A stretch of 64,000 nt of DNA from Desulfomicrobium sp. ZS1 (lineage in GTDB: Bacteria; Desulfobacterota; Desulfovibrionia; Desulfovibrionales; Desulfomicrobiaceae), in contig NZ_CP100351.1 of NCBI RefSeq assembly GCF_024204645.1, forward strand, positions 434,001 through 498,000. The letters are read 5' to 3'. Every line of letters starts with the position of its first letter. Position 1 is the stretch's first letter. The notes under the pieces were generated by a model. It did not search any database, was not told where the DNA came from, and saw only the letters and a list, made by a program, of their open reading frames with translations. The position numbers and the translations under genes were made by a program. Shown here one piece after another: positions 3,105 through 50,538 of the stretch.

Positions 3105-3322
3105 GTCGAAAAGTAAGCATAGCCCGCCTTGCCACCGGCGTTCCCGGGCTTGATGTGATCCTTGGCGGCGGGATCCCGGAACTCTCGTTCAATCTCATTT
3201 TGGGGGCTCCGGGCTGCGGCAAGACCACGCTTGCGCATCAACTCATGTTCGCCATGGCAACAGCAGCGCGGCCTGCGCTCATGTTCGCCGCAACGAATGG
3301 CAGGACCGACAATGCTGAATAA
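3101..3322 (+). CDS. Truncated KaiC/RadA-like ATPase (N-terminal 73 aa)
   Basis: The reading frame begins like a KaiC-family protein (RLATGVPGLDVILGGGIPE) and reaches the Walker A loop GAPGCGKTT at residues 35-43, then ends after 73 residues. A KaiC domain is normally about 230 residues, so Walker B and the catalytic glutamates are missing and ATP hydrolysis is unlikely. The frame does not continue in another phase downstream. Yet it is tightly packed: it starts inside the previous gene (ATGA overlap) and ends 11 bases inside the next. It may be a deletion remnant kept as a coupling cistron, or a small nucleotide-binding protein. I annotate it as a coding sequence but a pseudogene is equally possible. 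Confidence 0.55.
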   Translation: MSRKVSIARLATGVPGLDVILGGGIPELSFNLILGAPGCGKTTLAHQLMFAMATAARPALMFAATNGRTDNAE

Positions 3323-6245: not shown

Positions 6246-7025
6246 GTGAAGAAAAAACTAACAGCGACATGTTTAGCGGTTGCATTCATCTTTTCGGCGA
6301 CATTGGCTTCCGCTGCGCTGGTTACACAGTGGTCGTATGTTAACGATGCTGTCTTTATAGATTGGAGCAACGAAGATGCTAATCAAGATTATACCGTGTT
6401 GAGCCCAGATAGCAGAACACTGTCCTGGGGAGTTCCGTCCATGTATTCTAAAACAAAACTGCAAAGTTCGCTTGTGATTGACGGGCCTGTCATTGGTAAC
6501 AATCTGATGACTTCTGAGGCTGCTGTAGAGGTTATATCAATTACACACCATAATAATTTAATGAGTTCATCATATCCTAACCTTGCATCTGGGAGAGTCG
6601 AGGCTACTGTGGAGTTTACGCCTTTAGTACCTGCGGGGTTGCCGCTTCCTGTCGAAACAACATATCTTGATTTTCTGTTCTTCGAGACTTTAAACAGTAA
6701 CGTTGCGACGCCCATGGATATCTTCGTTTTGACCGATCCAGGTGCAACCAGCGGCGCATTCGATTACGATGGCTACACATACAACTTCTCCTTCTTGAGT
6801 GACGGCTTCGGCCTCCTCACTGGTGCGTATCATGATTACATTGTCCGTCAGCTCGGCGTGGACACAGACTATTATGGCTGGCTTGCAAGCGAGGACGGCA
6901 GCACTTCGGCTCAGTTCTATCTAGGTATCACGGCCGCGCCAGTCCCCGAGCCGGCCACCATGCTGCTTCTTGGCGTCGGCCTGCTTGGCCTGGGCTTGGC
7001 GGCGCGACGCAACAAGAATAATTGA
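6246..7025 (+). CDS. THxN-type PEP-CTERM protein, exosortase substrate
   Basis: This 259-aa protein has a signal peptide (MKKKLTATCLAVAFIFSATLASA). Its C-terminal sorting tail starts with VPEPAT near residue 233, followed by a hydrophobic helix and the basic end AARRNKNN. The exosortase at 57205 should cleave at PEP after export. SITHHN in the middle is the THxN signature of one PEP-CTERM subfamily. It is a close paralogue of the protein at 9810, with collinear sequence over the full length. The start is GTG with GGAG 9 bases upstream. The mature part is acidic and beta-rich, as for a secreted matrix protein; its function is unknown. Confidence 0.9.
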   Translation: MKKKLTATCLAVAFIFSATLASAALVTQWSYVNDAVFIDWSNEDANQDYTVLSPDSRTLSWGVPSMYSKTKLQSSLVIDGPVIGNNLMTSEAAVEVISITHHNNLMSSSYPNLASGRVEATVEFTPLVPAGLPLPVETTYLDFLFFETLNSNVATPMDIFVLTDPGATSGAFDYDGYTYNFSFLSDGFGLLTGAYHDYIVRQLGVDTDYYGWLASEDGSTSAQFYLGITAAPVPEPATMLLLGVGLLGLGLAARRNKNN

Positions 7026-7583: not shown

Positions 7584-8270
7584 TTACCAAAACCACCATT
7601 TTTCCGTGTTCAGCACAAATGCGGCCAGGGCCAGATTGGTCACCGCGTGGGCCAGGACGCACTGTGCCAGGCTTCTGGTCCTGTAGAGCAGCCAGGAATA
7701 GGCCATGCCGGCCATGATCCCGGCGAGGATGAAATGGTGGGCCAGGCCGAAGAGCACGGCTCCGACCAGAAACGAAATCCAGGTGAACGTCCCGAGCGGG
7801 ACTTTGGAGAACTCCGGGTTGATGACATAGCGCAGGATGAAGGAGCGCCAGAAGATTTCTTCCATGATCGGGACAATGAGCACGGCGCTACCGATACGGA
7901 TGGTGGTCATGACCCGACGCAGGCCGGGGTCCGGAAAGATGCCCGGATTGAAGCCCGGCGGCTCGCTCAGTGCCCCGATAGTCCAGTCCATGTTGATCCA
8001 TAGCGTAAAGACCGCAAGCCCCAGCGTGATGCTCACCAAAGTATGGCTGCTCCGGGTCAGGTCGGACCACCGCAGTTCCGTGTAGGCGCGGCGGCACAGA
8101 ATGAGCGCGATGACGGCGACCAGGGGTCTCAGCGGGTAAAGCATGGCGAAGGTAGAATCCTGGATGGGGATCCAGGATTTACCGTCCATGAAACGTAAGC
8201 CTTCCTCCAGGCCGATGACAGCCATGAAGAGGGCAAAAGGCAATATGCGCGGCCAGGCTTTGTCTTTCAT
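7584..8270 (-). CDS. CPBP/CAAX-protease-like membrane protein, PEP-CTERM associated
   Basis: This 228-aa protein has about seven membrane segments and the three motifs of the CPBP (CAAX protease and bacteriocin-processing) family. They are EEIFWR at 137-142, FGLAHH at 174-179 and HAVTN at 208-212. The two glutamates and the histidines form the presumed metal or catalytic site inside the membrane. One branch of this family is known from genomes with exosortases, and the position between PEP-CTERM genes fits that branch. The substrate is unknown; a role in handling sorting-tail fragments is only a guess. The gene is transcribed against its neighbour at 7232. Confidence 0.85.
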   Translation of the reverse strand: MKDKAWPRILPFALFMAVIGLEEGLRFMDGKSWIPIQDSTFAMLYPLRPLVAVIALILCRRAYTELRWSDLTRSSHTLVSITLGLAVFTLWINMDWTIGALSEPPGFNPGIFPDPGLRRVMTTIRIGSAVLIVPIMEEIFWRSFILRYVINPEFSKVPLGTFTWISFLVGAVLFGLAHHFILAGIMAGMAYSWLLYRTRSLAQCVLAHAVTNLALAAFVLNTEKWWFW

Positions 8271-8565: not shown

Positions 8566-9474
8566 ATGAAATCACGTATCAAAAGCAGTCTATGCGCGGC
8601 AGTGTTGATGTGTTTTTTAGTTTCGCCTTCATGGGCAAGTATTTGGCTGCCGGAACCGGTCTTTCCTAATGCAATTCCATACGATGAATATTATTCCTAT
8701 TCAACAAGCATATTGAAGCAGCTTTATCCAGGTTATTCTGTTTATCCATCAAATCAAGGCTCACTCAAAGATGAGCTTAAGATATGGTGGGGTGATAGCG
8801 AAAGTGCAGAAAAAGCTGCTGGAGACAATTTGGAAATCAGAGGCGGATATGACTTTCCTGATCCTTTGTCGTTTCCTAACTCAGGTTCGACAACTGAATT
8901 TAACACTGATTTGCTTATTACTTGGAAAGTATCCGTAGATTTGCTTTATGATTTTCTGCAAAGCGAATTCGAAAATTCAAATATACCTGTTTTTGCTTTC
9001 GATATTAATCAGATAGGCGGCCAACCTAACATGCTTGGTAATGGGTATGTCGCAATTGTCGACGAATTTGACGATGTTGCTCCTTATGAATCTGATGATT
9101 TTGGTCTTGCAGAATGGGCTTTTGACAGTTCTATTAATGGAGAATTTGACGAGGAAGCTCTTGTCGAGGTGCCGAACACTCGAACTGTGGAATTCATGGG
9201 CGTGGAATACTCATTTGATACAACCGGAACAAACAACGTGGACTTTCTTGTATATGCTCCGACGATGGACCTGGCCCAGTTTATTGATCAGGGTCTTTTC
9301 TTCACAGCTACATTCCAGTATCAGCTTTTGAGCGATGGTTTTGAAGATTTCTTCATTCTGGGTTATAGAAGCGACAATCCTCCTCCGCCTCCAGTGCCTG
9401 AACCGGCCACCGTGGCTCTGCTCGGACTCGGCATGGTGGCTTTGGCCTTCACAAGCCGTAAGCTGCGCAAATAA
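8566..9474 (+). CDS. PEP-CTERM protein, exosortase substrate
   Basis: This 302-aa secreted protein has a signal peptide (about 1-25, ending WAS) and a C-terminal tail beginning VPEPAT near residue 277, then a hydrophobic helix and TSRKLRK. A PPPPP run stands just before the tail as a linker. The mature part is strongly acidic and rich in Asp, Glu, Tyr and Phe. It lacks the THxN signature and shows no similarity to the two neighbouring PEP-CTERM proteins outside the tail. GGAGGG lies 9 bases before the ATG. Function is unknown; the tail makes it a substrate for the exosortase at 57205. Codon use is more AT-rich than in the flanking genes. Confidence 0.9.
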   Translation: MKSRIKSSLCAAVLMCFLVSPSWASIWLPEPVFPNAIPYDEYYSYSTSILKQLYPGYSVYPSNQGSLKDELKIWWGDSESAEKAAGDNLEIRGGYDFPDPLSFPNSGSTTEFNTDLLITWKVSVDLLYDFLQSEFENSNIPVFAFDINQIGGQPNMLGNGYVAIVDEFDDVAPYESDDFGLAEWAFDSSINGEFDEEALVEVPNTRTVEFMGVEYSFDTTGTNNVDFLVYAPTMDLAQFIDQGLFFTATFQYQLLSDGFEDFFILGYRSDNPPPPPVPEPATVALLGLGMVALAFTSRKLRK

Positions 9475-9809: not shown

Positions 9810-10598
9810 ATGAGGAAGAATTTCGTTGTAACATGTCTTTTGGCTGTGGCGTTTCTTTTCTCGGCGACGTTCGCCTCCGCTGCCCTGGTGACTCAGTGGT
9901 CGTATACCAACGACGCGAATTTCGTTGATTGGCTCAACGATGCCAATACTCAGGACTTCATGAGCGTAAGCGGTGATTCGAATACCCTGTTCTGGGGCGA
10001 GCCATCTGACGTCCCCGGGAGTAATCCAGACCAGCTTCAAAGCTCGCTTGTGCTAAACGCGCCTGTAAGCGGTGACAATCTGTTTACTTTCGGATCAGCT
10101 GTGAACGTGGTTTCAATCACACACTATAATAACATTCTTTCTTCAGAGTATCCAACTCTTGCATGGGGACAGGTCGAGGCTACCATTCAGTTTACGCCTT
10201 TTGATCCTGCCGGTCCTGCGAAGTCTATCGACCCCGCCTATCTGGAGTTTATGTTTTATGAAACTCCCAATGATGATGTAACGCCAATGGATATTTTCAT
10301 TCTCACCAATCCGGGTCTGACCAGTGGCTCGTTTAACTATGATGGATACAAGTATGATTTTGACTTCAATAGCGAAGGCTTCGGACTTATTGAAGGCGCG
10401 TATCATGACTTCATTGTCGATAAAACTGGAGTGGATACAGATTATTTTGGATGGTACACAAGTGAAGACAACAGTACATCTGGTCAGTTTAACTTGAGCA
10501 TAACAGCTTCCCCTGTTCCAGAACCTGCCACCATGCTTCTTCTCGGCGCTGGCCTGCTTGGCCTCGGCATAGCGGTACGTCGCAACAAGAAGAACTAA
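9810..10598 (+). CDS. THxN-type PEP-CTERM protein, exosortase substrate
   Basis: This 262-aa paralogue of the protein at 6246 matches it from the signal peptide (FLFSATFASAALVTQWSY) through the SITHYNN signature to the tail. The tail starts VPEPATMLLLG near residue 236 and ends in AVRRNKKN. The ATG follows GGAGGATTACC. It has its own sigma-54-type promoter and terminator, so it is a single-gene unit. The duplication, with matching upstream sites and leader, suggests that promoter and gene were copied together. Function is unknown; it is probably a secreted, sorted surface or matrix protein. Confidence 0.9.
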   Translation: MRKNFVVTCLLAVAFLFSATFASAALVTQWSYTNDANFVDWLNDANTQDFMSVSGDSNTLFWGEPSDVPGSNPDQLQSSLVLNAPVSGDNLFTFGSAVNVVSITHYNNILSSEYPTLAWGQVEATIQFTPFDPAGPAKSIDPAYLEFMFYETPNDDVTPMDIFILTNPGLTSGSFNYDGYKYDFDFNSEGFGLIEGAYHDFIVDKTGVDTDYFGWYTSEDNSTSGQFNLSITASPVPEPATMLLLGAGLLGLGIAVRRNKKN

Positions 10599-10620
10599 TC
10601 AGACTAATTTCGTCAGATGA

Positions 10621-10653
10621 AGGCCGGGAAGCATATGCTTCCCGGCCATTTTT
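10621..10653 (+). terminator. Rho-independent terminator, perfect palindrome
   Basis: GGCCGGGAAGCAT (10622-10634) is followed directly by its exact complement (10635-10647), then ATTTTT. It ends the third PEP-CTERM gene and may also stop transcripts from the convergent gene at 10691. Confidence 0.85.
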
Positions 10654-10690
10654 CATTTATGAGGTCATCTTCCCCGGGCGCAATGGCCGT

Positions 10691-12730
10691 TTATTTCATC
10701 AGAGAGTCGCGAGCACCGCGCCGCAAGGTGCGGTGTCGGATTCCGGGGCCATAGCCTGCGCGAAAGAGCATGATCAGACCTTGCTTTTCAAAATCAACGG
10801 AAGTGAACAACCCTTTCAAATCCTGCCAGACCCGTTTCAGTAATTTTTGGTGCTTTTCGGAAAAACTTGATGGCCCTTCCCACAGCCAGCGCAGCCAGAA
10901 GAGGGTCACGGCGGTCATGGGCTGCATTTGCAGGCCATGGTGCTCCATTGCCAGCCAGATGCGCTGCAAGGCCTGTCCTCCGAGCAGAAAATCCCTTGCT
11001 TCCAATCCCCCTACCACGACCATCCCGGCAACTCCACTGGCCAGGATGCCTTGGGCTGAGTGCAGGGCCACCAACCGGCCGAGGCCAATGCCGTTGGCAA
11101 CGCGCATTGCGGGCCAGGGTTTTGTCAGGCGCAGGAATGCCTCTCCCGGCAATCCGGCTTCCAGATTTTTGAGAGGCAGTCCATCGCGTCGCTGCTCGGC
11201 TTCCTTCATGTTGAAGCGGATCATGGATGTGAAATGTTCATGCAAGCCCTGGTGTTCGGTGCGGATCCTGTCGGCCAGATAGATGACCTTGGCCAGTTTT
11301 CGGAGTTGCGCGCGGCCGCTGAGCAGGTGAAGATGCGCTTCGGGAATGTCGCGAATGCGGGCTTTGAGGTCGGCTTGCACCCAATCCGGCAGCGGTCGTT
11401 TGCTGTACGGGCGGCGGTTGGTGCAGCGCGTCCAGATATGCCGGGCCAGCGGGTCTGCTGTGTGATCCCCTGGATGAATGCGCACGGTGGCCATCAGATT
11501 TTCCTGCTCGGCATCCGGCCGGATCTGCGTGGTCGCAGCCATGCTCATGGTTGTGGCGGCGAGGCGGATGTTTTCCACTGCTGCCCCGCAGGCGATGATG
11601 GAGGCGGTCTGGCGGACATTGAAAAAAGATACGTCGGCTTCCGGATTCAGAAAAACGTGGATGTCGTTGCCTGTCAGGCGGAATTGCCACGGCTGGACAT
11701 TATCCCCGGAGGGCGCTTGAACTGCGGCCTGCAGGAGATAAGTGCCGACACCCTGGGGCAGGGAATCAAAATGTGCGACGCTTACAACAGGTTGGTCCGG
11801 TATGCGCACCCGGGCCTGGTCGGCAGCTTCGATCAAAATGTTTTGCACGTACCAGAGCTTGGCGCGCTGGCTGAAGGTGCGATTGCCCCGGCTCAGGCGT
11901 CCTTTGCGGAGTACCTGTCGGAAGGGGTCGAACTGCATGAAACAGGGCGCGGGCTTGAGCCCGGGCTTGCCGAGAATGATGCGTACGGCCTCGGTAGCTG
12001 CCAGGGATGCGCAGAGCAGGCAGGCGATGTTCAGAGATGGGCCCTTGCCGCCCTTGAGGTCCACCCGCGAGAGATCCATGTACCCGATATGCGTCGGCTT
12101 GGGGGCCAGTCCCATGGCGAAACGCAGATATTTCTGTTCCTCCTGCAGTTCTCCGCCCACATCGAAATAGTCGTCAAATCCCATACCTTGCGGAGTGAAG
12201 ACCAGGAGGGCCGAACTGTACCCCAGCGGTCCGGCGGTGATTACGGGCACGCCCATGGACCGGGCCATGTTGAACAGCGTGCGGCGGATTTCGAACTGGA
12301 AGAAATCCAGTCCGTCCAGGACAACGTCCACGCCCGTTAGGAAGGCTTCCATGTTGTCCGCGGTCAGCCCTGCTGGATAGGGAGTGATGCTCAGGAACGG
12401 ATTGATGCTGCGCGCCTCTTCGATCATGACTTCCAGTTTGGGGCGGCCGAAGGAAGGAACCTTGGCCCCGAACTGGCGGTTTACGTTGACCGGTTCGTAC
12501 TGGTCGAAGTCGGCCAGATGGAAGCGGCCGATTCCAGTGCGTACAAGATTGATCAAATGCACTCCGCCCACTCCGCCCATGCCTGGGATGGCCACCCTGG
12601 CCTCGGCCAGCCGCTCCTGTTCTCCGGGGGAAAAGAGGCCGATGTTGCGGGAAAAGGCGGCCTCGCGGTAGGTCGCCGCGCTGGAAATGCCGAGGGCCTG
12701 TAGCGTTGCCAGATGTTCATCTTGTATCAT
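10691..12730 (-). CDS. ThiF (E1-like)-nitroreductase fusion protein
   Basis: This 679-aa protein joins two domains. Residues 25-270 are an E1-like ThiF/MoeB/HesA fold. GMGGVGG at 50-56 is the nucleotide loop, ADFDQYE (73-79) and NVNRQ (82-86) are the ATP-contacting motifs, and an LNIACLLCASLAATEAVRIILG helix closes the fold. Residues about 330-625 are a nitroreductase-type flavin domain starting LLQAAVQAPSGDNVQPWQF. ThiF proteins adenylate a carboxylate, and nitroreductases use FMN for redox steps. A fusion could activate and then oxidise or reduce the same substrate. It is the last gene of the minus-strand cluster with two N-acyl amino acid synthases, whose products carry a free carboxylate. 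That link is inference. GAGG lies upstream of the ATG. Confidence 0.85.
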   Translation of the reverse strand: MIQDEHLATLQALGISSAATYREAAFSRNIGLFSPGEQERLAEARVAIPGMGGVGGVHLINLVRTGIGRFHLADFDQYEPVNVNRQFGAKVPSFGRPKLEVMIEEARSINPFLSITPYPAGLTADNMEAFLTGVDVVLDGLDFFQFEIRRTLFNMARSMGVPVITAGPLGYSSALLVFTPQGMGFDDYFDVGGELQEEQKYLRFAMGLAPKPTHIGYMDLSRVDLKGGKGPSLNIACLLCASLAATEAVRIILGKPGLKPAPCFMQFDPFRQVLRKGRLSRGNRTFSQRAKLWYVQNILIEAADQARVRIPDQPVVSVAHFDSLPQGVGTYLLQAAVQAPSGDNVQPWQFRLTGNDIHVFLNPEADVSFFNVRQTASIIACGAAVENIRLAATTMSMAATTQIRPDAEQENLMATVRIHPGDHTADPLARHIWTRCTNRRPYSKRPLPDWVQADLKARIRDIPEAHLHLLSGRAQLRKLAKVIYLADRIRTEHQGLHEHFTSMIRFNMKEAEQRRDGLPLKNLEAGLPGEAFLRLTKPWPAMRVANGIGLGRLVALHSAQGILASGVAGMVVVGGLEARDFLLGGQALQRIWLAMEHHGLQMQPMTAVTLFWLRWLWEGPSSFSEKHQKLLKRVWQDLKGLFTSVDFEKQGLIMLFRAGYGPGIRHRTLRRGARDSLMK

Positions 12731-12752
12731 GCTTGATCCTCTTTTTCCTTAA

Positions 12753-12782
12753 GGAGATGCCCCCGGAATGCGGGGCGTCTCC
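12753..12782. repeat. Intercistronic hairpin between MMPL and ThiF genes
   Basis: GGAGATGCCCC (12753-12763) pairs with GGGGCGTCTCC (12772-12782) with one wobble and an 8-base loop. There is no T-run in the minus-strand sense, so it looks like an RNA-stability or attenuation hairpin rather than a full terminator. Confidence 0.5.
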
Positions 12783-12815
12783 GGCGTGTTTGCTGGGCGG
12801 CTTGCTCCTGTCTTG

Positions 12816-15083
12816 TCACGCGCTCTTGCCGTCAAAGGAAAGCATGGCCGCCGGCAGAACGATCATGTCGCCTATCAAGGCCGTGATCATGATCACGGCG
12901 CTTAAGCCCCCGAAGCTCATGGTGGGCACGAAGCTGCTGAAAAGAAGCACGCCGAAGCCGATGACCAGGATCAGCGATGACGCGCAGATGGCCGTGCCCT
13001 TATCCAGGATGGATTGTTGCAGAGCCTCCCGCATGGGCAGGTTTTCGGCGCGCTTTCGGTTGTACTCGGTCAGAAAATGGATGGTGTCGTCCACGGCGAT
13101 GCCCAGGGCGACCACGGAAATCAGGGCTGTGGAGGTGTTCAGGGGGATGCCGAGCAGGCCCATGATCCCGAAGTTGAGAATGATCGGAAACGCGTTGGGG
13201 ATCAGGCTTAAGGCCCCTGCGACAAGCGAGCGCAGGGCCAGGAACATGATGAACGTGATCACGGCGGCGGCCAGGGCCAGACTTTCCACCTGTCCCCGGA
13301 CCAGGGCGTCGATGGTGTTCACGTCCTGTACGGCCCGGCCGGTGACCCGGATTTGCAGGCCTTCGTGTTCGTGCTGGTCGATGAAGGCGCGCAGGGCGTC
13401 AATGAGTTCGGCCTGGCCTGCGGAGCTGTGCTCGGAGATGCGGATCAGGACGCGGGCCTGATCGTATTCCGGGGTGATGAATTCATCCATGTCGTCGGAG
13501 TCGTAGAGCAGCAGATACTGGGACACCAGTTCCCGGCTTTCGGGGATGACGTAGAAATTCGGATCCTCGTTGTGAAAGGACATGTTCATGTCTTTCAAAA
13601 AGTCCACGAAGGACATGGTTCGGTCGACGCCCGGCAGGGTCAGGGCGAAAGTTTGCAGCCTGTCGATCACGGCCAGCTTGTCCGGGTCGCGTAAGGCATC
13701 CCGCTCCCCGGCCTTGACGGATATGTCCACCGTGCCGACCCCGCTCAGGCGGGGTTCGATGTAGGAAAGCTCTTGGCGCAGGGGACTTGAAGGCTTGAAA
13801 TACTCCAGCAGGTTGGTCTCGACCCGGATCGTCGAGGCTGCCCACAAAGCGCCCAGGGTCAGGAGCGCGATGAAGATGGTTATGGGGCGGGCGTGGGTTT
13901 GCACCAACGCGGAGAGGCGGCCCAGAAAGGCGCCCATGCCGATGTCCTTGCGTCGGTGTGTGTATATGGTGTCGGGCCTGCACATGAGCATGAGCGGCGG
14001 CAGCAGCAGGAAGGAGAACAGAAATTCGAAGATCATGCCCGCCGAAGCCACGTATCCAAATTCCTTGATCGGCGGAATGTCGCTCACGACAAGGGAGATG
14101 AAGCCTACGGCCGTAGTCAGGCTGGTGAGAAAGCAGGGGGTTATGACCCGTTGCAGGATGCTCTCCATGGCCTTGGCGGGAGACGGGGCATCATCCAGCA
14201 GCTTTTTATCCAGATGGGCGAAGATGTGTACGGAATCGGCCAGAGCCAGGGCCATGACCAGGGGCGGGACAATGGTGGTCACGTTGTTCAGCGTGATGCC
14301 GAGCAGGGGGAAGAGACCCATGGTCGCCCCCGTGCACATGGAGATGTTGGCCAGGGCCAGCAGGGTCAGACGCACGTTGCGGAAAAAGAGCCAGATGGTC
14401 AGGGTGATGAACAGGTAGGTCACCGGGATGAACACGGCCACATCCGACTTCATGTACTGGCTGAGGCTGAAGTTGGTCATGGTCCAGCCGGCCAGATGAA
14501 ACCGGCCGGCGAGCTCTTCATGTTTGGCTAGCACCGTTTCGGTCTGTTCGATGAGCCTCTTGCGAAAGCTGCCGTCCCCTGCCTCATGCGCGGTGGGAAA
14601 GACCACCAGGGCCGTGGTCTCTCCGTCGGCCGAGACGAGGTTGCCGACATACAGCGGGTTGCCCAGCGCCTGCTCCCGCAGGGCGGCCAGACCCGGAACG
14701 TCTTCCGGAATGCGCTCCAGGAAGGGGCGGACTTCGAAATATTCCTCTTCGCCGTGGATGTAGTCCACATTGGCTAGGCTCTGAGCCTCCCGGACTTCGG
14801 GGATGGTTTCGAGTTCCTGCGTGATGGCCGCGATCATGCGCAAGATGGAGGGCGTGAACAGCTCAGGACTTGAAAAGGCGATCACGAAGAATTCGTCTTC
14901 TCCGAAGGTGTCTTTGATGCTTTGGTAAAAGGCGACGTCCGGATCGTCCTCGACGGTGAAATAATCCACATTGTCCACGGTCTGGATGCGGGGAAGCTGG
15001 ATCAGGAACGGGGCGGCCAAGCACAGGGACAGCACGAGGCAGAGTATGGGGAAGCGGGTGACCAGGCTGGCGATGTGCTTCAT
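12816..15083 (-). CDS. MMPL/RND-family lipid exporter
   Basis: This 755-aa inner-membrane protein has the RND layout: one N-terminal membrane helix, a large periplasmic loop (about 30-215), a bundle of helices, a second loop (about 410-580) and a second bundle. The second half contains GIAVDDTIHFLTEYNRKR, the DD-containing helix typical of MMPL/COG1033 proteins that move lipids or lipid-like molecules. It starts inside the stop of the upstream acyltransferase gene (ATGA overlap at 15080-15083), so the two are translationally coupled. The most direct reading is that it exports the N-acyl product of its neighbours. The LolA-like and barrel proteins of the same cluster could take over in the periplasm and outer membrane. 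Confidence 0.85.
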   Translation of the reverse strand: MKHIASLVTRFPILCLVLSLCLAAPFLIQLPRIQTVDNVDYFTVEDDPDVAFYQSIKDTFGEDEFFVIAFSSPELFTPSILRMIAAITQELETIPEVREAQSLANVDYIHGEEEYFEVRPFLERIPEDVPGLAALREQALGNPLYVGNLVSADGETTALVVFPTAHEAGDGSFRKRLIEQTETVLAKHEELAGRFHLAGWTMTNFSLSQYMKSDVAVFIPVTYLFITLTIWLFFRNVRLTLLALANISMCTGATMGLFPLLGITLNNVTTIVPPLVMALALADSVHIFAHLDKKLLDDAPSPAKAMESILQRVITPCFLTSLTTAVGFISLVVSDIPPIKEFGYVASAGMIFEFLFSFLLLPPLMLMCRPDTIYTHRRKDIGMGAFLGRLSALVQTHARPITIFIALLTLGALWAASTIRVETNLLEYFKPSSPLRQELSYIEPRLSGVGTVDISVKAGERDALRDPDKLAVIDRLQTFALTLPGVDRTMSFVDFLKDMNMSFHNEDPNFYVIPESRELVSQYLLLYDSDDMDEFITPEYDQARVLIRISEHSSAGQAELIDALRAFIDQHEHEGLQIRVTGRAVQDVNTIDALVRGQVESLALAAAVITFIMFLALRSLVAGALSLIPNAFPIILNFGIMGLLGIPLNTSTALISVVALGIAVDDTIHFLTEYNRKRAENLPMREALQQSILDKGTAICASSLILVIGFGVLLFSSFVPTMSFGGLSAVIMITALIGDMIVLPAAMLSFDGKSA

Positions 15084-15979
15084 GGATGATCCGTGCGCAT
15101 GGTGGATGCGGGGGCGCTTTTGAGGAAAGGATAGAGCCGCGTCAGATGCTCCTTTTGGCGCTGGGACAGCTTTTCGCAGATTTCCTGCCGGGTGTTGAAA
15201 AAGAACCGCGCGTCCTCTTCTTTCATGGGAGGCCTTTTGTCATAGAACGTCCACCCGTTGTTCAATTCCACCAAGGTGCTTTTCATTTTATAGAAGAACT
15301 CATGGATATTGTCATCCACGTCATAATCTTTGTATTTTTCCGATGCCTTGTCTTCGATATGCTCCATGTTGATGCGCAAGGCGACTGCCGGAGCGCCAAC
15401 TCCCGGGTAAAAACGCTCTTCTCCGAAATCTTCGAACAGGAACATTGTCTTGTAAAAATTGACATGCTTCGGGTTGACCATGATGCATATGTCGTCAATG
15501 TGGTTCATTATCGAATATTCAAACATCGTCTTAGACAGGAAGACCATGAGATTGCACCAGCGTGTCTCCCTGGGCGTTGCCAAGGCCGAAAGCTCGGTGA
15601 TCTTTCTGCCCTGGGAACGCAACGCATCAAGTTCAGGCCGATACAGCGCGTCCATGGGCAAGCCGAAGAGTTCGCTGTCGAATATCTGGGTCAGGGTGGA
15701 TATGACCGTAACATAGGTTCTGAAAATGAAGACGCACGTCGCCGGCAGGAGATTGTAGACGCTTAAATGCATTTCCGAAGGGTGCGGCTCCGCGATGTAT
15801 CCCGAGGCAAGGTACTCCCTGTAGACGAGGGCGAAGGATTGAGCCCACTCATCGCGGGCTTCCGCAATTTTGATGTTCGGTCGGTCTATTTCATCCAGCT
15901 TGGCCCTCAGCATGGCGGAACGGCGAAGTCTGACGGATCTTCGGCGGTCCTGGCGCGTATTTTCGGAGAGATCGGTCAT
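15080..15979 (-). CDS. FeeM-like N-acyl amino acid synthase (exosortase-associated acyltransferase)
   Basis: This 299-aa soluble protein resembles the exosortase-associated acyltransferases, relatives of the long-chain N-acyl amino acid synthase FeeM with a GNAT-like fold. Typical stretches are VYREYLASGYI, VISTLTQIFDSELFGLPMDALY, a GRKITELSALAT strand and DDICIMVNPKHVNFYKTMFLFEDFGEER. Such enzymes join a fatty acyl group from acyl carrier protein to the amino group of an amino acid. FeeM-type enzymes are known to be linked to PEP-CTERM/exosortase genes. A second, diverged copy lies just upstream (16131). The stop overlaps the MMPL start. Which acyl chain and amino acid are used cannot be told. 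Confidence 0.85.
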   Translation of the reverse strand: MTDLSENTRQDRRRSVRLRRSAMLRAKLDEIDRPNIKIAEARDEWAQSFALVYREYLASGYIAEPHPSEMHLSVYNLLPATCVFIFRTYVTVISTLTQIFDSELFGLPMDALYRPELDALRSQGRKITELSALATPRETRWCNLMVFLSKTMFEYSIMNHIDDICIMVNPKHVNFYKTMFLFEDFGEERFYPGVGAPAVALRINMEHIEDKASEKYKDYDVDDNIHEFFYKMKSTLVELNNGWTFYDKRPPMKEEDARFFFNTRQEICEKLSQRQKEHLTRLYPFLKSAPASTMRTDHP

Positions 15980-16130
15980 GGGTTCTCCATATTCGCGAGC
16001 ACGAAAAAAAAGGAAAAGCCGACGCGGTTCGCGTCACGGCCCTGTTCGTTATGGTTTCCTCCTGGCAGCAACGCTTGAAGAGCCGCAAATGTTCACTGCA
16101 TATGCCATGCCTGAATTAGGCTTGGGAGAA

Positions 16131-16997
16131 TCAGATCTGCAGTCCGGGGTACGAATCCCGGAGCAGGATTTTGCATTCCAGGGACAGATCCTGCAGGTCG
16201 TCAATGACGTCGGACAGGATGCGGTTGATCAGGCCCGTGTCCAGGGGGTTGGGGCGGAACCGTGTAAAGTGTTCGCCTTTGAAGATGCCTGTGATCCGCT
16301 CGCAGAGTGCGATCCGCAGCGACAGGTACTGAGAGTCGAGCGTGTTGCGGTACGAGGTCATGAGGCCATTGCTGCCGAGTCGCTCCCGTACCGCGGCCAC
16401 GTCCGCGCGCAGCGCCACGGCCGGGGCGTTGACTCTGTGATAGTGCTTCTCGCCTCCGAAAAGTTCCAGGTCGCAGAGCCTCTTGTAGACGGGGACATGT
16501 TTCGGATTGACCATCACGCAGACGTCATCGACATCCAAGAACACGCAATACAAAAAGAGCAGTCTGGTGAAATTGTGAATGCCGATTCTCGAAAATCTAT
16601 GCGTGCTGGACGCCAGGGAGCATACTTCCACCACTTTGCGCCGCTGCCTGCGTAGCGACTCCAGTTCCTTGCCGTACAAGTCGTCCATGGGCAGGCCGAA
16701 CTGATTGGAGTCGGGAACAAGTGTTGCTGTGGATATCACGGTGCTTTCGGATTTGGCCAAAAGCACCGTTGTTTTTGGAAGCAGATGGTGCTTCGTAAAC
16801 AATATTTCGTTCTTGTTTTCCTGAGCATATCCTGCATTTACATATTCGTGATACAAAAGATGGTAGGATTCGAGCAGCTCACATGCGGAATCGGCAACCT
16901 TGAACAGATAATCGATCTCGTCTGCGCGCTGAAAACATTCATTTTCACGCGTGATTGAGTTTGAAAAATTGAGCCATCGATGTCTTGTCAGTGTCAT
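16131..16997 (-). CDS. Second FeeM-like N-acyl amino acid synthase
   Basis: This 288-aa protein shares the plan of the neighbour at 15080: YHLLYHEYVNAGYA, ESTVISTATLVPDSNQFGLPMDDLY, RRKVVEVCSLAS, DDVCVMVNPKHVPVYKRL and ELFGGEKHYH. Identity is clearly below that of a recent duplication, so the two enzymes probably differ in acyl or amino acid choice. The ATG at 16995-16997 follows GGAG by 8 bases; a TTG five codons upstream is less likely. A strong hairpin at 17041-17080 lies between it and the outer-membrane protein gene upstream in the same direction. Confidence 0.85.
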   Translation of the reverse strand: MTLTRHRWLNFSNSITRENECFQRADEIDYLFKVADSACELLESYHLLYHEYVNAGYAQENKNEILFTKHHLLPKTTVLLAKSESTVISTATLVPDSNQFGLPMDDLYGKELESLRRQRRKVVEVCSLASSTHRFSRIGIHNFTRLLFLYCVFLDVDDVCVMVNPKHVPVYKRLCDLELFGGEKHYHRVNAPAVALRADVAAVRERLGSNGLMTSYRNTLDSQYLSLRIALCERITGIFKGEHFTRFRPNPLDTGLINRILSDVIDDLQDLSLECKILLRDSYPGLQI

Positions 16998-17040
16998 TAT
17001 ATCTCCAGACAAATGTGTTTTTGCGTGTTGTTCGCAAGAA

Positions 17041-17080
17041 CGGCGCTATCCGTGGTTCAATGGAACACAGGATAGCGCCG
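17041..17080. repeat. Long intercistronic hairpin
   Basis: An 11-bp perfect stem (17041-17051 with 17070-17080) continues inside as GTG-TTC/GAA-CAC with one bulge, leaving a tiny loop. No T-run follows on either strand. It sits between the barrel and acyltransferase genes and could set their relative expression by protecting or stopping mRNA. Confidence 0.6.
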
Positions 17081-17174
17081 CTCTTATCGGCGAATATCTC
17101 CGTCGCAAGCTGCCGGGGCTAAGATGGTCTGCGTGTCCCCGAAGATCGCGGCGCGGGTGGAGTGCGATTTTTTT

Positions 17175-19049
17175 CTAAAAATAGTATTTGGCTTTGCAAA
17201 AGACCTGGTCATTGTCCCGGTAGCGGCCGAACAGGGAATCCTGCGGGCCGAAAAAGACGTTCGCTCCCAGCGTGAGTTCGAGGTTCTTGTAGTAGCTGAG
17301 GATGGCCTCCGGTGTCAGGAACGAGCCTCCATCGTGGAGATCCAGGGCATAGCGCAGTTTCAGCATGACGTTTCCCCGCCAGAACTCGCGGTTGATTTCG
17401 CCGTTCAGATAAAAATTGTCGCGGCGAAGGAACAGGATGTCGGACTCGTACTCGAAGACGTGCTGGTGCGAGAGCTGTACGTTCGCGTACCAGTCCTGCT
17501 CGCCCAAATAATCCACCCCCAGGACATAATGGGCCACGGGTTTGGCCACGGAGTCGAGGGATTCAGTGTGCAGGCTCTGTTTGTCGAAATAGGCCCCTTC
17601 ACCCCGAAATCCGAACGTGTCTGCGGTGGTTTCGAATTCCACGGCCCAGATGTGTTGCCTGTGGTAGTCGGCATACAGGGTTGGCCCTGCGGGATTGGCC
17701 GGGTCGAAGCGCAGGCGGGGCGATTTTTCCGTCGCGTACAGGTAGCTCGCCGCCACGTCCCATCCCGCCAGGGACGCGGAGGTGCGCAGACCCAGGTCGG
17801 AGTTGTCCAGTCCCTTGCCGGGCTTTGATTCCCTTATTCTCAGATCGCTTGGCTGATTGCCCAGCAAGGCCCAGGTGGTCCCGGAGAAGTCGAATTCGTT
17901 TTCCTCGAAAAAGGGGATGAAGATGCCTTCCAACGTGATGTCGCCGGGGAACAGCCGGATTCTGGCCATCCAGTTGGGAATCTTGCGGTCTTCCAGTTCC
18001 GGGACGAAGAATTCCCGCATATCCTGCGGGTTGACGTTGTCCGCCGGACTGATCTGGTCCGTCTTGCCCCAGCGCACGATCTGTCTGCCCAGGCGCAGGT
18101 CCCAGTCCGGAGTGGCGTGGGATACGTAGCCTTCGTACAGGTCCAGGTCATAGTCGTCCGTTGAATGTTCGGGACCGAACCAGAGGTAGTCGGACTGCAG
18201 CGAGGCCAAAAGAAAGGTGTTCGATGCGCCGGGGGCGGCCGCAGGATCGTTGCCGGGCAGCGGCGGTGTCCATTTTCCTTCGAGCCTGACCGTGTTGCGG
18301 AAGTTTCGCTCCTGCTCGGGGTCATCCGATTCGTGCAGTTCCTGCGCTATTTTTGCAAGGAGGAACCCTGAGAAGTCGAGCCGCCCCCAGGGCGAAGGCT
18401 CTTCCAGGTCCTCGCTTGGGGCATTGGGTTCTCCGAAGACAAGGGTTGTGTTCTCGGTGCTCTCGTATGTGTCTGCCAGGGCCACGGTATACGCCGGATG
18501 CGCATTTTGCATGCCGGTTTTGACGCTTTGCGGCGGCGGGGTGGGAAGAGCGGGCTTTCGGGGTGGCGCTACCGGGTTCATCGGAGCCAGGCTGACCACG
18601 ATTTTGTGGGCGGCGTTTTCCGTGCTTGTGGGGATCGTGTCGATGCGGTTCGTCACCTCGTCTTTCAAGTCCAGGACCACGCGCACGGTTGTCGGGTTGA
18701 ACTGGGCCGCGCGGACACGGAAGATCAACGGGTGCTGCGCGGGCAGAGTGACGGCCGCGCCTGAAAGCCGTGCCTCGGTGATGTCGAGCACCAGACGATT
18801 GGAGTCGTCCAGTACAAAAGAGCGTACGTTTCGCGGTGCCCTGGACAAAAGGATGGTCAGGGTTTGCGGCGCATCTGCCTGGCTCAGCTCGAAAGCGGAG
18901 ACCAGGACGGGCGTGTTTGCAAAGGCTGGGATCGGGAAGATGAGCGCGAGGAACAGCAGGATGACGTGCAAGAGAGGCGGCAAGGTTGATCCAGGTTGGC
19001 GGTGCGTCCATCTGCGCGATGAGGGCAGCCTTTTTTGTCGAGTTTTCAT
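17175..19049 (-). CDS. AMIN-domain outer-membrane beta-barrel protein
   Basis: This 624-aa protein has a signal peptide after a basic start (hydrophobic core about 24-43, cleavage near AFA). An AMIN-like domain follows (about 48-150: VSAFELSQADAPQTLTILLS, NRLVLDITEARL), then a Pro-rich linker (about 155-180) and a long barrel region. The barrel part resembles DUF1302-type porins (LRLGRQIVRWGKTDQISPADNVNPQDMREF). The chain ends in YYF, the aromatic C-terminus read by the BAM complex. AMIN domains bind peptidoglycan or envelope partners; joining one to a barrel is unusual. In this cluster it could be the outer-membrane exit or receptor for the lipid-like product. That role is inference from the MMPL and LolA-like neighbours. 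Confidence 0.8.
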   Translation of the reverse strand: MKTRQKRLPSSRRWTHRQPGSTLPPLLHVILLFLALIFPIPAFANTPVLVSAFELSQADAPQTLTILLSRAPRNVRSFVLDDSNRLVLDITEARLSGAAVTLPAQHPLIFRVRAAQFNPTTVRVVLDLKDEVTNRIDTIPTSTENAAHKIVVSLAPMNPVAPPRKPALPTPPPQSVKTGMQNAHPAYTVALADTYESTENTTLVFGEPNAPSEDLEEPSPWGRLDFSGFLLAKIAQELHESDDPEQERNFRNTVRLEGKWTPPLPGNDPAAAPGASNTFLLASLQSDYLWFGPEHSTDDYDLDLYEGYVSHATPDWDLRLGRQIVRWGKTDQISPADNVNPQDMREFFVPELEDRKIPNWMARIRLFPGDITLEGIFIPFFEENEFDFSGTTWALLGNQPSDLRIRESKPGKGLDNSDLGLRTSASLAGWDVAASYLYATEKSPRLRFDPANPAGPTLYADYHRQHIWAVEFETTADTFGFRGEGAYFDKQSLHTESLDSVAKPVAHYVLGVDYLGEQDWYANVQLSHQHVFEYESDILFLRRDNFYLNGEINREFWRGNVMLKLRYALDLHDGGSFLTPEAILSYYKNLELTLGANVFFGPQDSLFGRYRDNDQVFCKAKYYF

Positions 19050-19166
19050 ATGTCTCGGATCTCCCAGAACTGCACTTCAGTTTGTGGGTAAATTTTTTTC
19101 AGTACTGGAGACTCATTCAGCATGTTCATGGGTCGGAAAAATTGTACATATGTATGCTCGATTAAT

Positions 19167-19961
19167 TTACCAGCGTTCGAGAGCCTGCTGCGTGAATATG
19201 CTGTCTGATAGTCCTGTGTTGTATTGAATATCCGTTGTCTCCAGGGTCGTTTTATGGCCGGACGAGAGGTCTTCCATGGCCACTTTGGTCTCGGTCCAGA
19301 TGTTTTGGATGTTTTCCAGTTGGAGCACGGCGTAGCGTTTGGTCGGGGTTTCGCCGCCGGCAAAGAATTCTACCCGCAAAGGCAGGAGCATATCCTGCGC
19401 CACCCAGCTTCGGACCATGGTGTACTGGGAATTCGATCCGCTTTTAGGCCTGCTCTCCATGATCCAGCACCGTACGCTGTTCAGTGATTCGTCGCCGACA
19501 ATGATGTGTTCGGAGTCGTCGACGGGTCTGCGCTCCATATCTTCGTAAGTGAAATCGGTGTTTACGAAGCTCCGGCTCTTCTGGCCTGCCACGATGCGTC
19601 GCGTTCTGTTCAGGGCAGGCAGATAGAGGAACTGGGTCGTCTCCCCCTGTCCGTCTTCGACGGCCAGAAAGCCTGTGCCCTGGATATCCGCAGGGGATAT
19701 GAACCGGAGCAGGGTCGATCGAGCGCCGTTCTTTTCCAGAACGGAAATGTTCAGCTGGCGGACGCGCTTTTGTCCCGAGGCCGGAGCGAGCTCCATGATT
19801 TGCCGGGAGACGGAGTCGTCGCCCACATAGCGGTCATGGACCAGTTGGGCCAGTTCCTGGCCCGAAGGTTGGGCGTGGGCCGGAAGCGCCGGGTTGGCAA
19901 AGCCCCAGAGCAGGGTTGCGCAGACAAGGAAATATTTTGGGAACAGGGTGTGGATATGCAT
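19167..19961 (-). CDS. LolA-like outer membrane lipoprotein-sorting protein
   Basis: This 264-aa periplasmic protein has a signal peptide (about 1-30, ending AHA). The fold cues match the MMPL-associated branch of outer membrane lipoprotein-sorting proteins: LLRFISPADIQGTGFLAVE, TTQFLYLPALNRTRRIVAGQKSRSFVNTDFTYEDM, then later strands. Members carry lipids or acylated molecules across the periplasm and usually sit beside MMPL exporters, as here. It is the promoter-proximal gene of the minus-strand cluster. I see no sigma-54-type site for it in the intergenic region, although the 17-bp motif at 20133 lies between it and prsT. Confidence 0.8.
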   Translation of the reverse strand: MHIHTLFPKYFLVCATLLWGFANPALPAHAQPSGQELAQLVHDRYVGDDSVSRQIMELAPASGQKRVRQLNISVLEKNGARSTLLRFISPADIQGTGFLAVEDGQGETTQFLYLPALNRTRRIVAGQKSRSFVNTDFTYEDMERRPVDDSEHIIVGDESLNSVRCWIMESRPKSGSNSQYTMVRSWVAQDMLLPLRVEFFAGGETPTKRYAVLQLENIQNIWTETKVAMEDLSSGHKTTLETTDIQYNTGLSDSIFTQQALERW

Positions 19962-20132
19962 GATCGACGCTCACGGATTTTTGATTGTTCGAGGCCGCCA
20001 CCTCCATCACCCATGTTTTTTCAGGGATATTGCCCGAAGTGTCAATGATATGTTGGAAGAGATAAAAAAAAGTGATGCAACAGTAATTATTAGGAGATGC
20101 GCTGTGAATTATTCCGGATAATTTTGAACAAA

Positions 20133-20149
20133 TGTAAATTTTTTCGACA
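20133..20149 (+). promoter_or_regulatory. Putative PrsR upstream motif of EPS operon
   Basis: TGTAAATTTTTTCGACA is identical to the site at 5394. A weaker inverted partner (20155-20171, complement TGTTAAAAATATCTCGA) follows after 5 bases. It lies 222 bases before the sigma-54-type site at 20372, a longer spacing than at the PEP-CTERM genes. DNA bending could bridge it. Confidence 0.55.
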
Positions 20150-20371
20150 GTAAATCGAGATATTTTTAACACTTGAAGTCAGTTTTTGGTTTGTGCTGTT
20201 GGGCAGTCAATGGAGATAAAATGGGGATTTGATGTCTGTTACATGTTGGTGCAACACTTCTGCTGCGCGCAACGTTTTTGTGTGCTCTCGCGTCCCTGCC
20301 GATGTCTTTTTGTATCAATTATCATGCTGAATTAATGTAATAATTTAAATTTGAACAGGTTTTTCTCCTGC

Positions 20372-20387
20372 GGGCATTGAACTTGCT
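20372..20387 (+). promoter_or_regulatory. Putative sigma-54 promoter of EPS operon
   Basis: GGGCATTGAACTTGCT has GG-N10-GC spacing and a perfect TTGCT -12 element; only the first base differs from consensus. It would drive prsT and the EPS core. Confidence 0.6.
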
Positions 20388-20684
20388 TTAGGGGGCTCGA
20401 CAGGCGTGATGAGCGTCTGTCGGCCCTGCCTCTGATGAGGCGGCCTGGGTACGTATCCGTAAGGACATTAACGGTATCGCCAAAGCGGGCAGACGGAACA
20501 TGATGTTCGCGGCGTTTTGAAAGATGAGCGGTTGCGCTGTCCTGCGCATCGGATGAACTTCCCGCGGGCCAGGCGCCTGGACGCAGTCGGTTCGTCCGGA
20601 ACTGACTGCCCATGCCGGACCACGGCGCATTATTCAGCATACGGAGCGATCCGCTCTTCAAAAGGCATGTTCGACGGAGGAAGA

Positions 20685-23339
20685 ATGATCAGATGTACTG
20701 TAGTCGCGGTTGCGCTCATGCTTTGCGTTGCTCTTGCTGGTTGCAAGGGACATACCAGCGAATCCCTCAACGCCGAAGGGGAGTCGCTTTTCAAACAAGG
20801 CAACTATAACGGGGCGATCGTCCATTACAAAAACGCTCTGGAGAAGGACCCCAATTTTGTTGTGGCGCGATTCAACCTCGGGTTGGCTTATATCGAGACC
20901 GGCAAGATGGATCAGGCCGAGCGGGAGTTCCAGAAAGTCCTGCTGCAGAACCCCTATGACGGGCGAGTCAATTTCCAGTTGGGCCGAATCGCTAATTTCC
21001 AGAACAAGCCTGCCGTGGCCGTGCCCTTGATCATGGCCTATTTGAAGGAACATCCGGATGATGCCGCCGCCCTGGAACAGCTCGCCATTTCGGCTACGAT
21101 TTCCGGAGATCCCGCCAGCGCCAGGGAACACCTGGAAAAGGCCCTGGCCATTGAGCCTGGCCGGATTTCGGCCAAGCAGGGTCTGATTCAGGTTTTTATG
21201 GCCCAGGGGGACAGGGCTGCGGCTCGCAACATGCTCGACGATCTGCTGACCCAGGATCCCGAGAACAGAACGGGGCTGCACGCGTTGGCGCAGCTTGAGG
21301 CTCAGGAGAAGGATCCCGAAGCCATGCTTGATGCGTATTCCCGCATCTCTTCCGCCTACCCCGCCGATCTTTTTGCCCGCTACAAGGAAGGCAGCCTCCT
21401 CATGAACAAGGGCGAAGGAGAGAAGGTCAAGGCATCGGCCGAGGCCATGCTGAGTGAGTACCCCGACAGCGCCGAAGGGCATCGGCTCATGGGGCTGTAT
21501 CTTTTTCGTGAAGGTAAATTCGACCAGGCCGCGACGTACCTCAGCAAATCCCTGCGCATCAAGCCGGATCTGGAAACGTATTATTTGCTGGGCCTTGTCT
21601 ATTACAATCTCAAAAATCTGGAGCTGGCGGTGACCCAATTCCAGACCGTGCTCGATTACAGTCCCGGCTTCGTGCAAGCCAGGATCATGCAGGGCGAGAT
21701 ATTTATGCGTCAGGGTCGGGGACCGGAAGCGATGGTCGTGGCCGAAAAGCTGATCGAAGGCAGTCCGGAGGATTTTCGCGGCCATGTCCTCAAAGGCGAC
21801 GCTCTGTTGATGCAGGGGAAGGCCCATGAGGCGCTGGCCGAATTCAAACTGGCTATGGGGCTTGCGCCATCCCATTATGGACTACTGATCAAGACAGGGC
21901 TGCTCAAGCTGTCCTTGGGGGACCGCAGCGGAGAGGACGAACTGGTGAGCGCGATCAAAATTTCGCCTGAGGGCGTCGATGCACGCATGGCCCTGCACTC
22001 GTATTATTTCAGAAATGGCCGCATGGACGAGGCCTTGGCCGTGCTGACCGAAGGCTTGAACGGAAGCAAAAATGACGCCGTGTTCTACAACGCCTTGGCC
22101 AAGGCTTCATTGGGACGCAGGGACGCCGAGGGGGCTGAGGAGTATCTGGCCAAGGCACGTGGCGCGGATCCCGCTTTCCTACAGACATATTTTCATGGAG
22201 CCATCGCCAAACTTGCCCGAAATAAGCTTGATGAGGCCGTGACCCAGTATGACTTGGCTCTGGGCTTCGTCCCGAATGATGTGCGAGCCCTCATTGCTTC
22301 GGCGGCGGTCCTTGAGAAACAGGGGAAGCTCGACGAAGCCCGGGTCCGGCTGGAAAAGGCCAGCGCCACCAAGGACACCGGGGCGATCCTGATGCTTTCG
22401 AGTTTTCTGCAGCGAAACGGGAAAAGCGACGAGGCCTTGGCGGTTCTGGATCAGGAACGAACGAAGCAACCTGAGAATATGGTCATTGTCCAGGGCATGG
22501 CCAAGCTGCATGTCGCACGCAAGGAAATGGATAAGGCCATGGCCTTATACAGCCGGCTTGAGCAACTCGACCCCTATGCCGGGACGGTGGAGCGGATGAG
22601 AGCGTGGATTGCCGCCGGAGATCTGGAAAAGGCCGAGGAAAGCGCCCGGCGTCTGATGCAGTTGAAGCCGGACAAGGGGCAGTCCTGCCTGCCGTTGGCC
22701 AGCATCCTTGAGATGCGCCAGAAACGGGCCGAAGCCGAAAACGTACTGGTCAAAGGGTGGGCGTTGGATCCCACGGACAATCAGGTCGGCGTCATGCTGG
22801 GTGAGTTTCAGCTGCGTGGCCGGGAGACCAAGAAGGCGCTCGCCACCTTTGATCAGGTTTTGGCACATGCCCCCGCTAGCGCCCCGGCCCTGACCGGGAA
22901 GGGCATGGCTTTGCAAATGCTTGGCAAGAACGACGATGCCGCCAAGATGTATCTCCAGGCCGTCCAGGCCCGGCACGACCATGTCCCGGCCTTGAATAAT
23001 CTGGCCATGATCTGGGCCGATGACGAGGCGAAAAGCGCCCAGTCCGTGAATCTTGCCATGGCGGCCTTTGTCCTCGCGAATAGCGACCCCGCCGTCATCG
23101 ACACCCTCGGCTACGCCCTGATCCGAAACAATCGTCCAGAGGAGGCCCTGGGCGTACTCGCGCGGGCCTTGACCCTTGCTCCAGGCAATCCCGGAATCCT
23201 TTATCATCAGGGCTTGGCCCAGGCCGAGCTGGGCCGCACGGCCGAAGCCAGGGCAACGCTTGAAACGGCCTTGGCTTCGGCCGATTTTGCTGAACGCGAG
23301 GACGCCCAAAAGCTTCTGCGCGCCTTGAGCGGGAAGTAG
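20685..23339 (+). CDS. prsT: PrsT, XrtA/PEP-CTERM system TPR lipoprotein
   Basis: This 884-aa lipoprotein has a signal peptide with lipobox LAGC (Cys20) and is otherwise a long array of tetratricopeptide repeats, for example residues 30-130 with GNYNGAIVHYKNALEKDPNF. Length and architecture match the PrsT family, which marks the start of XrtA-type EPS loci. By analogy with the TPR proteins of alginate and cellulose systems it should scaffold the export machinery at the outer membrane. The ATG at 20685 follows GGAGG by 6 bases and gives the signal peptide, unlike the longer frame from 20517. The next gene starts 9 bases after the stop. Confidence 0.92.
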   Translation: MIRCTVVAVALMLCVALAGCKGHTSESLNAEGESLFKQGNYNGAIVHYKNALEKDPNFVVARFNLGLAYIETGKMDQAEREFQKVLLQNPYDGRVNFQLGRIANFQNKPAVAVPLIMAYLKEHPDDAAALEQLAISATISGDPASAREHLEKALAIEPGRISAKQGLIQVFMAQGDRAAARNMLDDLLTQDPENRTGLHALAQLEAQEKDPEAMLDAYSRISSAYPADLFARYKEGSLLMNKGEGEKVKASAEAMLSEYPDSAEGHRLMGLYLFREGKFDQAATYLSKSLRIKPDLETYYLLGLVYYNLKNLELAVTQFQTVLDYSPGFVQARIMQGEIFMRQGRGPEAMVVAEKLIEGSPEDFRGHVLKGDALLMQGKAHEALAEFKLAMGLAPSHYGLLIKTGLLKLSLGDRSGEDELVSAIKISPEGVDARMALHSYYFRNGRMDEALAVLTEGLNGSKNDAVFYNALAKASLGRRDAEGAEEYLAKARGADPAFLQTYFHGAIAKLARNKLDEAVTQYDLALGFVPNDVRALIASAAVLEKQGKLDEARVRLEKASATKDTGAILMLSSFLQRNGKSDEALAVLDQERTKQPENMVIVQGMAKLHVARKEMDKAMALYSRLEQLDPYAGTVERMRAWIAAGDLEKAEESARRLMQLKPDKGQSCLPLASILEMRQKRAEAENVLVKGWALDPTDNQVGVMLGEFQLRGRETKKALATFDQVLAHAPASAPALTGKGMALQMLGKNDDAAKMYLQAVQARHDHVPALNNLAMIWADDEAKSAQSVNLAMAAFVLANSDPAVIDTLGYALIRNNRPEEALGVLARALTLAPGNPGILYHQGLAQAELGRTAEARATLETALASADFAEREDAQKLLRALSGK

Positions 23340-34725: not shown

Positions 34726-34776
34726 ATATTTTAGTGGTTATTAACTATATGTAATATAATATATTTATTAAAATAT

Positions 34777-36415: not shown

Positions 36416-36660
36416 TAGTTTTTTGAGTAAGATTTTATCTTTCATAGTATAAATATACAAAAGTGTATTGAGTTAATGTGTATAATATTTAATTTTTAGT
36501 AAAATTTGTATGATTAATATGGCGACTTTATTCACAATCGTAATAAAGAAATTCTGTCCGCGTGCTTAGTGACTAAATTGAGCAAATTGTATTGAAATTT
36601 TATTTAAAAGTTTTGAATAAATTATAATAATTTATTTTTAATATTTTTTTGATATTTAAA

Positions 36661-48309: not shown

Positions 48310-48346
48310 CCCCGGTTGAGTTTGTTCATATCAAGAGAGGTCTGAA

Positions 48347-50521: not shown

Positions 50522-50538
50522 ATAAGATCAATATTTTA

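Follow-up and report, generated by a model that had tools for sequence, protein, structure and literature searches.

The window analysed here is a stretch of 64,000 nucleotides from Desulfomicrobium sp. ZS1 (NZ_CP100351.1, positions 434,001 to 498,000), numbered from its first letter. It contains six open reading frames at 10691-19961, all intact, all on the minus strand and at the coordinates of the first-pass annotation. Together they make up a single operon-like unit, next to which lies a complete XrtA/PEP-CTERM locus (Table 1). In the order of transcription they encode a LolA-like carrier, an outer-membrane barrel protein with an AMIN domain, two FeeM-type N-acyl amino acid synthases (FeeM2 and FeeM1), an MMPL pump, and a fusion of a ThiF-type cyclase with a flavin-dependent oxidase (ThiF-FDO). 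The successive genes are separated by 117, 162, 151, -4 and 85 bp, the negative value being a 4-bp overlap of the FeeM1 stop with the MMPL start. FeeM2 begins with TTG in the mechanically derived list of reading frames and has an in-frame ATG at codon 6. The first-pass annotation had named these six functions and read the genes as a single pathway-like unit. Both points agree with the data. Each gene is recognised by Pfam or NCBIfam models, and the intact, co-directional genes keep their order in other Desulfomicrobium loci and in one further locus (L024). A scan for sigma-70 promoters (10500-20700) returned one match against 3.6 expected and is uninformative, and no RNA family was matched anywhere in the window.

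Table 1. Features of the operon and its surroundings, with positions in the window
Feature	Position	Strand	Basis
LolA-like carrier, periplasmic, signal peptide	19167-19961	-	PF17131
Outer-membrane barrel: signal peptide, AMIN (~48-156), DUF1302-type barrel (~218-624)	17175-19049	-	PF11741 + PF06980, model
FeeM2, FeeM-type N-acyl amino acid synthase, the paralogue that evolves faster, with the invariant FeeM residues present	16131-17012	-	PF21926
FeeM1, FeeM-type N-acyl amino acid synthase, conserved paralogue	15080-15979	-	PF21926
MMPL/HAE3-type RND pump	12816-15083	-	PF03176
ThiF-FDO, OxzB/TrzS-like fusion: ThiF/E1-type cyclase (~1-300), Acg-type flavin-dependent oxidase of the nitroreductase superfamily (~318-679)	10691-12730	-	PF00899 + PF00881, NF011424 (PRK14851)
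GC-rich hairpin, 11 pairs, terminator-like, T-run on + strand, between operon end and convergent THxN PEP-CTERM gene	10622-10647	+	pattern match only
THxN-family PEP-CTERM protein, convergent neighbour	9810-10598	+	NCBIfam
PEP-CTERM-associated CAAX protease-related protein	7584-8270	-	TIGR03008
PrsT, XrtA/PEP-CTERM TPR protein, divergent neighbour, first gene of XrtA/exopolysaccharide locus	20517-23339	+	family match
Exosortase A (XrtA)	57205-58038	+	family match
PrsK	60745-62877		family match

Biosynthetic enzymes

Acyl-oxazolones are produced by OxzAB of Pseudoalteromonas rubra and by TrzAS and TyzABC of Mycobacterium tuberculosis through N-acylation, ATP-dependent cyclisation and O2-dependent desaturation (PMC10404671, PMC12856293). 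In these systems, as in the operon, an acyltransferase gene lies next to a ThiF cyclase and an Acg-like flavin oxidase, the latter two being fused in OxzB, TrzS and ThiF-FDO and encoded by separate adjoining genes in the case of TyzB and TyzC. ThiF-FDO matches PF00899 (5e-46) and PF00881 and exceeds the cut-off of NCBIfam NF011424 (1248 versus 1170 bits). The whole protein stays under the curated cut-off of the Rv1355c family, the TrzS equivalog (NF005901; 270.8 versus 476 bits). In its AlphaFold model (mean predicted local distance difference test, pLDDT, of 84.9), residues 14-285 match Escherichia coli ThiF (1zfn; Z 25.4) and residues 318-679 match Acg (2YMV; Z 32.4, root-mean-square deviation 2.5 over 302 residues), which is also the nearest solved relative named for TrzS (PMC12856293); the Acg-like half was likewise matched by phmmer (E 8.5e-9). 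The nucleotide-binding and Asp motifs expected of a ThiF/E1-type cyclase are conserved in the ThiF half, GxGGVGG, R85, K98 and D139 being invariant in 14 relatives, and the residues of the oxidase domain are strongly conserved across the family. R490, Q603 and D139/D142 are invariant among relatives too, and their equivalence to D217, R540 and Q651 of TrzS is a guess.

Both synthases match PF21926 (4e-43 and 5e-47), so the operon places two genes of this family beside the cyclase/oxidase, and FeeM1 resembles the solved FeeM structure 2G0B (E 1.6e-12). Residues invariant across 21 relatives, among them Y56, P79, T95, D101, G106-P108, Y113, R121, E129, H172 and Y176 (FeeM1 numbering), are present in both copies. 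A tree in which several forks are weak suggests that FeeM pairs arose repeatedly within families and that FeeM2 is the faster copy. The PEP-CTERM/exosortase-associated acyltransferase model TIGR03694 has no match in this genome, which rules out that identity for the two synthases.

The operon differs from OxzAB, TrzAS and TyzABC in its two FeeM-type synthases, its different ThiF-FDO family, the genes for transport, the neighbouring exosortase locus and its sulfate-reducing host. The same three enzyme types, sometimes with multiple synthase genes, are also found in the clusters for stieleriacine, thalassotalic acid and kyonggic acid (NasY, ThiF and nitroreductase), where, however, ThiF and nitroreductase are separate genes and no MMPL, transporter or exosortase genes are mentioned (PMC12479983). 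According to PMC11072679 and PMC4897644, a link of N-acyl amino acid synthases to PEP-CTERM/exosortase systems goes back to Craig, Cherry and Brady (2011); compared with those synthases as the citing papers present them, the operon adds ThiF-FDO and the transport proteins.

Synthase and ThiF-FDO are directly linked on plasmids of Nitratidesulfovibrio vulgaris, where FeeM, ThiF and FDO are one protein of 974-989 amino acids inside an XrtA/PEP-CTERM locus. On the DP4 plasmid pDVUL01 (L038:14107-17076) and in a second locus (L039:14107-17031) the fusion gene lies between a PrsT-type gene and a gene of the same THxN PEP-CTERM family that adjoins the operon, and an ABC permease/ATPase/periplasmic adaptor set is found about 8 kb away. 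A search of plasmids returned matches only from N. vulgaris and Bdellovibrio. Loss of plasmid pDV1, which removes many genes at once, reduces N. vulgaris biofilm threefold (PMC3333781), and a barcoded transposon library of this species exists (PMC10102598).

Transport proteins

The LolA-like gene is the sole match to PF17131 in the genome (5e-59), also matches DUF1329 barely above the cut-off, and has solved relatives in 9TP6 (4e-37), 4Z48 and 3BK5. The barrel gene matches PF06980 (DUF1302) with 68.8 bits. Its model (mean pLDDT 73.3) starts with an AMIN-type beta domain at the N-terminus, followed by a linker of low confidence (160-217) and the barrel, for which MOMP, OprD/Occ porins and AlgE are the closest folds among solved structures (Z ~20-23). 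The pump matches PF03176 (1e-31), and its best family model is TIGR00921 (HAE3), at 199 bits below the cut-off of 351.9. The Asp of the VDDTIH motif in transmembrane helix 10 is invariant among 11 aligned cluster relatives, and the pump is 97% identical to an MMPL protein of another genome of the genus (G647). The MMPL proteins linked to the module cluster apart from three paralogues of the same genomes in a tree with long branches, whose outer order is unsure. Hopanoid transport by an HpnN-like pump was considered and rejected, the HpnN models scoring far below cut-off.

The first-pass annotation had proposed a dedicated export route across the envelope. Dedicated transport is indeed probable from the protein families and their linkage, and what we infer beyond this is its direction and cargo. 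Comparable sets are known: HAE3/LolA-like/DUF1302 and RND/LolA/LolB sets serve other lipophilic cargo (PMC6394551, PMC8253772). In the AmeABCD monoterpene efflux system of Castellaniella, an HAE3-like pump, a DUF1302 barrel and a LolA-fold periplasmic protein are encoded in one cassette. The operon has PF17131 instead of a full DUF1329 protein, an AMIN domain on the barrel and a biosynthetic rather than degradative setting, and contains no further gene for the second periplasmic protein, AmeC; it is therefore likened to AmeABCD in its working only and not classed as a member. ApeL, ApeM and ApeN likewise belong to clusters for lipid biosynthesis, those of aryl polyenes, that encode an RND pump and a LolA-like carrier of their own, and they have a link to biofilm; they differ in having a LolB-like protein where the operon has a barrel and in their unrelated lipid chemistry (PMC8253772). 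In M. tuberculosis the tyz genes adjoin mmpL9, a partial parallel (PMC10404671).

No description of an exosortase locus that joins oxazolone synthesis to this export trio was found in the open-licence literature. The view of the first-pass annotation that the combination is new is wrong for the enzyme set. The synthase, ThiF and redox enzyme represent known chemistry (OxzAB, TyzABC, TrzAS and the stieleriacine and thalassotalic acid clusters); what appears to be undescribed is that this chemistry is paired with this exporter, an arrangement kept in several bacterial families.

Conservation and genomic setting

Co-occurrence of the six protein families, the lack of which the first-pass annotation had named as a refutation, was surveyed in a phylum sample of 247 genomes (FeeM counted above 100 bits), and the predicted association was found. 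The ThiF-FDO type is present in 14 genomes, FeeM in 18, an exosortase in 87 and PF17131 in 147. Strong FeeM accompanies ThiF in 13 of the 14 genomes (Fisher P 8e-17) and PF17131 in all 14 (P 5e-4). Exosortases occur in 12/14 of these genomes versus 75/233 of the others (P 1e-4). The first-pass annotation was right to connect the operon with the exosortase locus. A PF17131 gene, often the only one of the genome, stands beside ThiF in most scored ThiF genomes; it lies within 10 kb in 10 of 13, against 0.14 expected (nominal P 3e-18, the relatives not being independent), and the linked cases spread over the families f1, f19, f40, f44 and f72. Whole or partial modules occur in these five and in f43. 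The set is complete in Desulfomicrobium, f19 (G017, G055) and f72 (G211), lacks FeeM at the site in f40 and the MMPL gene in f44, and in f43 (G168) comprises FeeM, ThiF and MMPL, the contig ending with a fragment of the barrel. In the five genomes with strong FeeM that do not have this ThiF type, no trio member was present in the FeeM stretches examined, some of which are short. In one genome (G187), an open frame of 639 residues (L026:12793-14712) carries the LolA-like domain in its C-terminal part (456-638).

The linkage recurs in a second phylum. In a pseudomonadotal genome (G267; L044:2635-18100), ThiF, LolA-like, barrel and MMPL genes stand in a row within an XrtA-type locus, and the genes on their flanks encode two TIGR03694 acyltransferases, a methyltransferase, and hydrolases and a ligase associated with XrtA. 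No oxidase domain was found within this stretch, and its product is possibly cyclised, methylated and undesaturated. Of 16 Pseudomonadota genomes with ThiF, only three (G247, G267, G642) have an MMPL gene nearby, and the exporter is therefore not a general companion of the enzyme.

Exosortase A, EpsI, PrsT, PrsK and PEP-CTERM proteins are all encoded at the locus next to the operon. A second THxN-family PEP-CTERM protein (6246-7025) brackets, with the convergent neighbour, another PEP-CTERM gene (8566-9474). A GGDEF-EAL protein (3162-4982) is encoded near these genes, so that control by cyclic di-GMP is possible; trzAS of M. tuberculosis is likewise flanked by genes for cyclic di-GMP turnover (PMC12856293). 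Two low-GC islands in the exopolysaccharide locus (34000-38000 and 48000-56000; 29-42% versus ~57%), with an IS4-family transposase nearby (39494-40885) and with two asparagine-synthase-like genes (52037-55256), are probably acquired sugar-modification genes. The host genome, a single contig of 3.87 Mb, has a dsrA match of 607 bits, and the host is thus a sulfate reducer.

Proposed function and alternatives

We consider it likely that the operon makes a lipid, either an acyl-oxazolone or an N-acyl-dehydroamino acid, and delivers it to the cell surface. By analogy with the characterised homologues, FeeM1 and FeeM2 would acylate one amino acid or perhaps two distinct ones; the ThiF domain would adenylate the carboxylate of the N-acyl amino acid, with ring closure to a 5(4H)-oxazolone; and the fused flavin oxidase would desaturate the alpha-beta bond, yielding an acyl-oxazolone or, if this is hydrolysed, an N-acyl-dehydroamino acid. 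As judged from gene context and protein family, the lipid may then reach the periplasmic face by way of the proton-driven MMPL pump, cross the periplasm on the LolA-like protein, and be released by the AMIN-bearing barrel into or through the outer membrane, where it would act with the exopolysaccharide/PEP-CTERM surface layer of the adjacent locus. Three observations hint at such a surface role: the presence of the XrtA locus, the position of FeeM beside PrsT-like genes in two genomes (G187, G162) and near one in a third (G004), and the case of Methylomonas LW13, in which a mutant of an exosortase-linked synthase loses the polysaccharide band (PMC11072679).

Several observations weigh against this interpretation. 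Sequence does not reveal in which direction the trio transports, and PF17131 and DUF1302 proteins handle other substrates elsewhere. The trio is absent from the N. vulgaris locus, and the enzymes can therefore manage without it; in family f66 the trio is together yet unlinked to ThiF and the synthases, and no MMPL match was found in G147 and G162. Moreover, characterised oxidases of this type use O2, and Desulfomicrobium baculatum, a close relative of the host, is a strict anaerobe (PMC3035215). The oxidase might thus work without O2 in this lineage, using another acceptor, or be active only upon exposure to O2, and the anaerobic product may be a saturated oxazolone, a reactive acyl donor. This would be a variant of the proposed pathway and not an exclusive rival, and we give it some chance while leaning against it. 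Besides the lifestyle of the dsrA-bearing host and its relative, it is favoured by TrzS, which builds up the cyclised, undesaturated compound under limited O2 (PMC12856293), whereas the strong conservation of the oxidase residues argues for a working redox step.

The final product could also be an uncyclised N-acyl or N-acyl-dehydroamino acid resembling stieleriacine or thalassotalic acid, with a transient ThiF step, and be released as a surfactant or signal. Stieleriacine-type producers have the same enzymes, and oxazolones were not detected in them (PMC12479983). However, ThiF and oxidase are fused in the operon as they are in OxzB and TrzS, which yield oxazolones (PMC12856293), and we regard an uncyclised end product as rather unlikely. 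The trio might also have another lipid as its cargo, or take up hydrophobic compounds, and be only co-regulated with the synthases. This would fit its occurrence alone in two genomes (G155, G204) and the related sets that serve monoterpenes (PMC6394551) or, like the MMPL-LolA fusion next to a porin in Thalassolituus, show induction by long-chain alkanes (PMC6304351). The overlap of FeeM1 with the MMPL gene, the regular position of the PF17131 gene beside ThiF, the grouping of the linked MMPL proteins and the repeated linkage in a second phylum speak against a separate cargo, which seems quite improbable. A chance neighbourhood of unrelated genes has next to no probability: nothing speaks for it except the breaks of linkage in f66, and it is contradicted by the synteny within and beyond Desulfomicrobium and by the number of linked genomes.

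If the operon exports an acyl-oxazolone as proposed, this azlactone, an internally activated acyl donor, might acylate amines at the outer membrane, either those of sorted PEP-CTERM proteins or those of the exopolysaccharide, and the operon would supply the lipid side of the anaerobes' XrtA/PEP-CTERM surface system. We put this forward as a long shot; were it true, a pathway of surface lipidation would account for the long-known association of exosortases with N-acyl amino acid synthases. The module joins two questions: what physiological role oxazolones have in bacteria, and why exosortases are accompanied by synthases of N-acyl amino acids. It also poses a biochemical one, how an O2-requiring type of oxidase works in strict anaerobes. 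In sulfate reducers, including genetically workable relatives such as N. vulgaris, it connects chemistry of the oxazolone type with an XrtA locus and a conserved set of three transport proteins.

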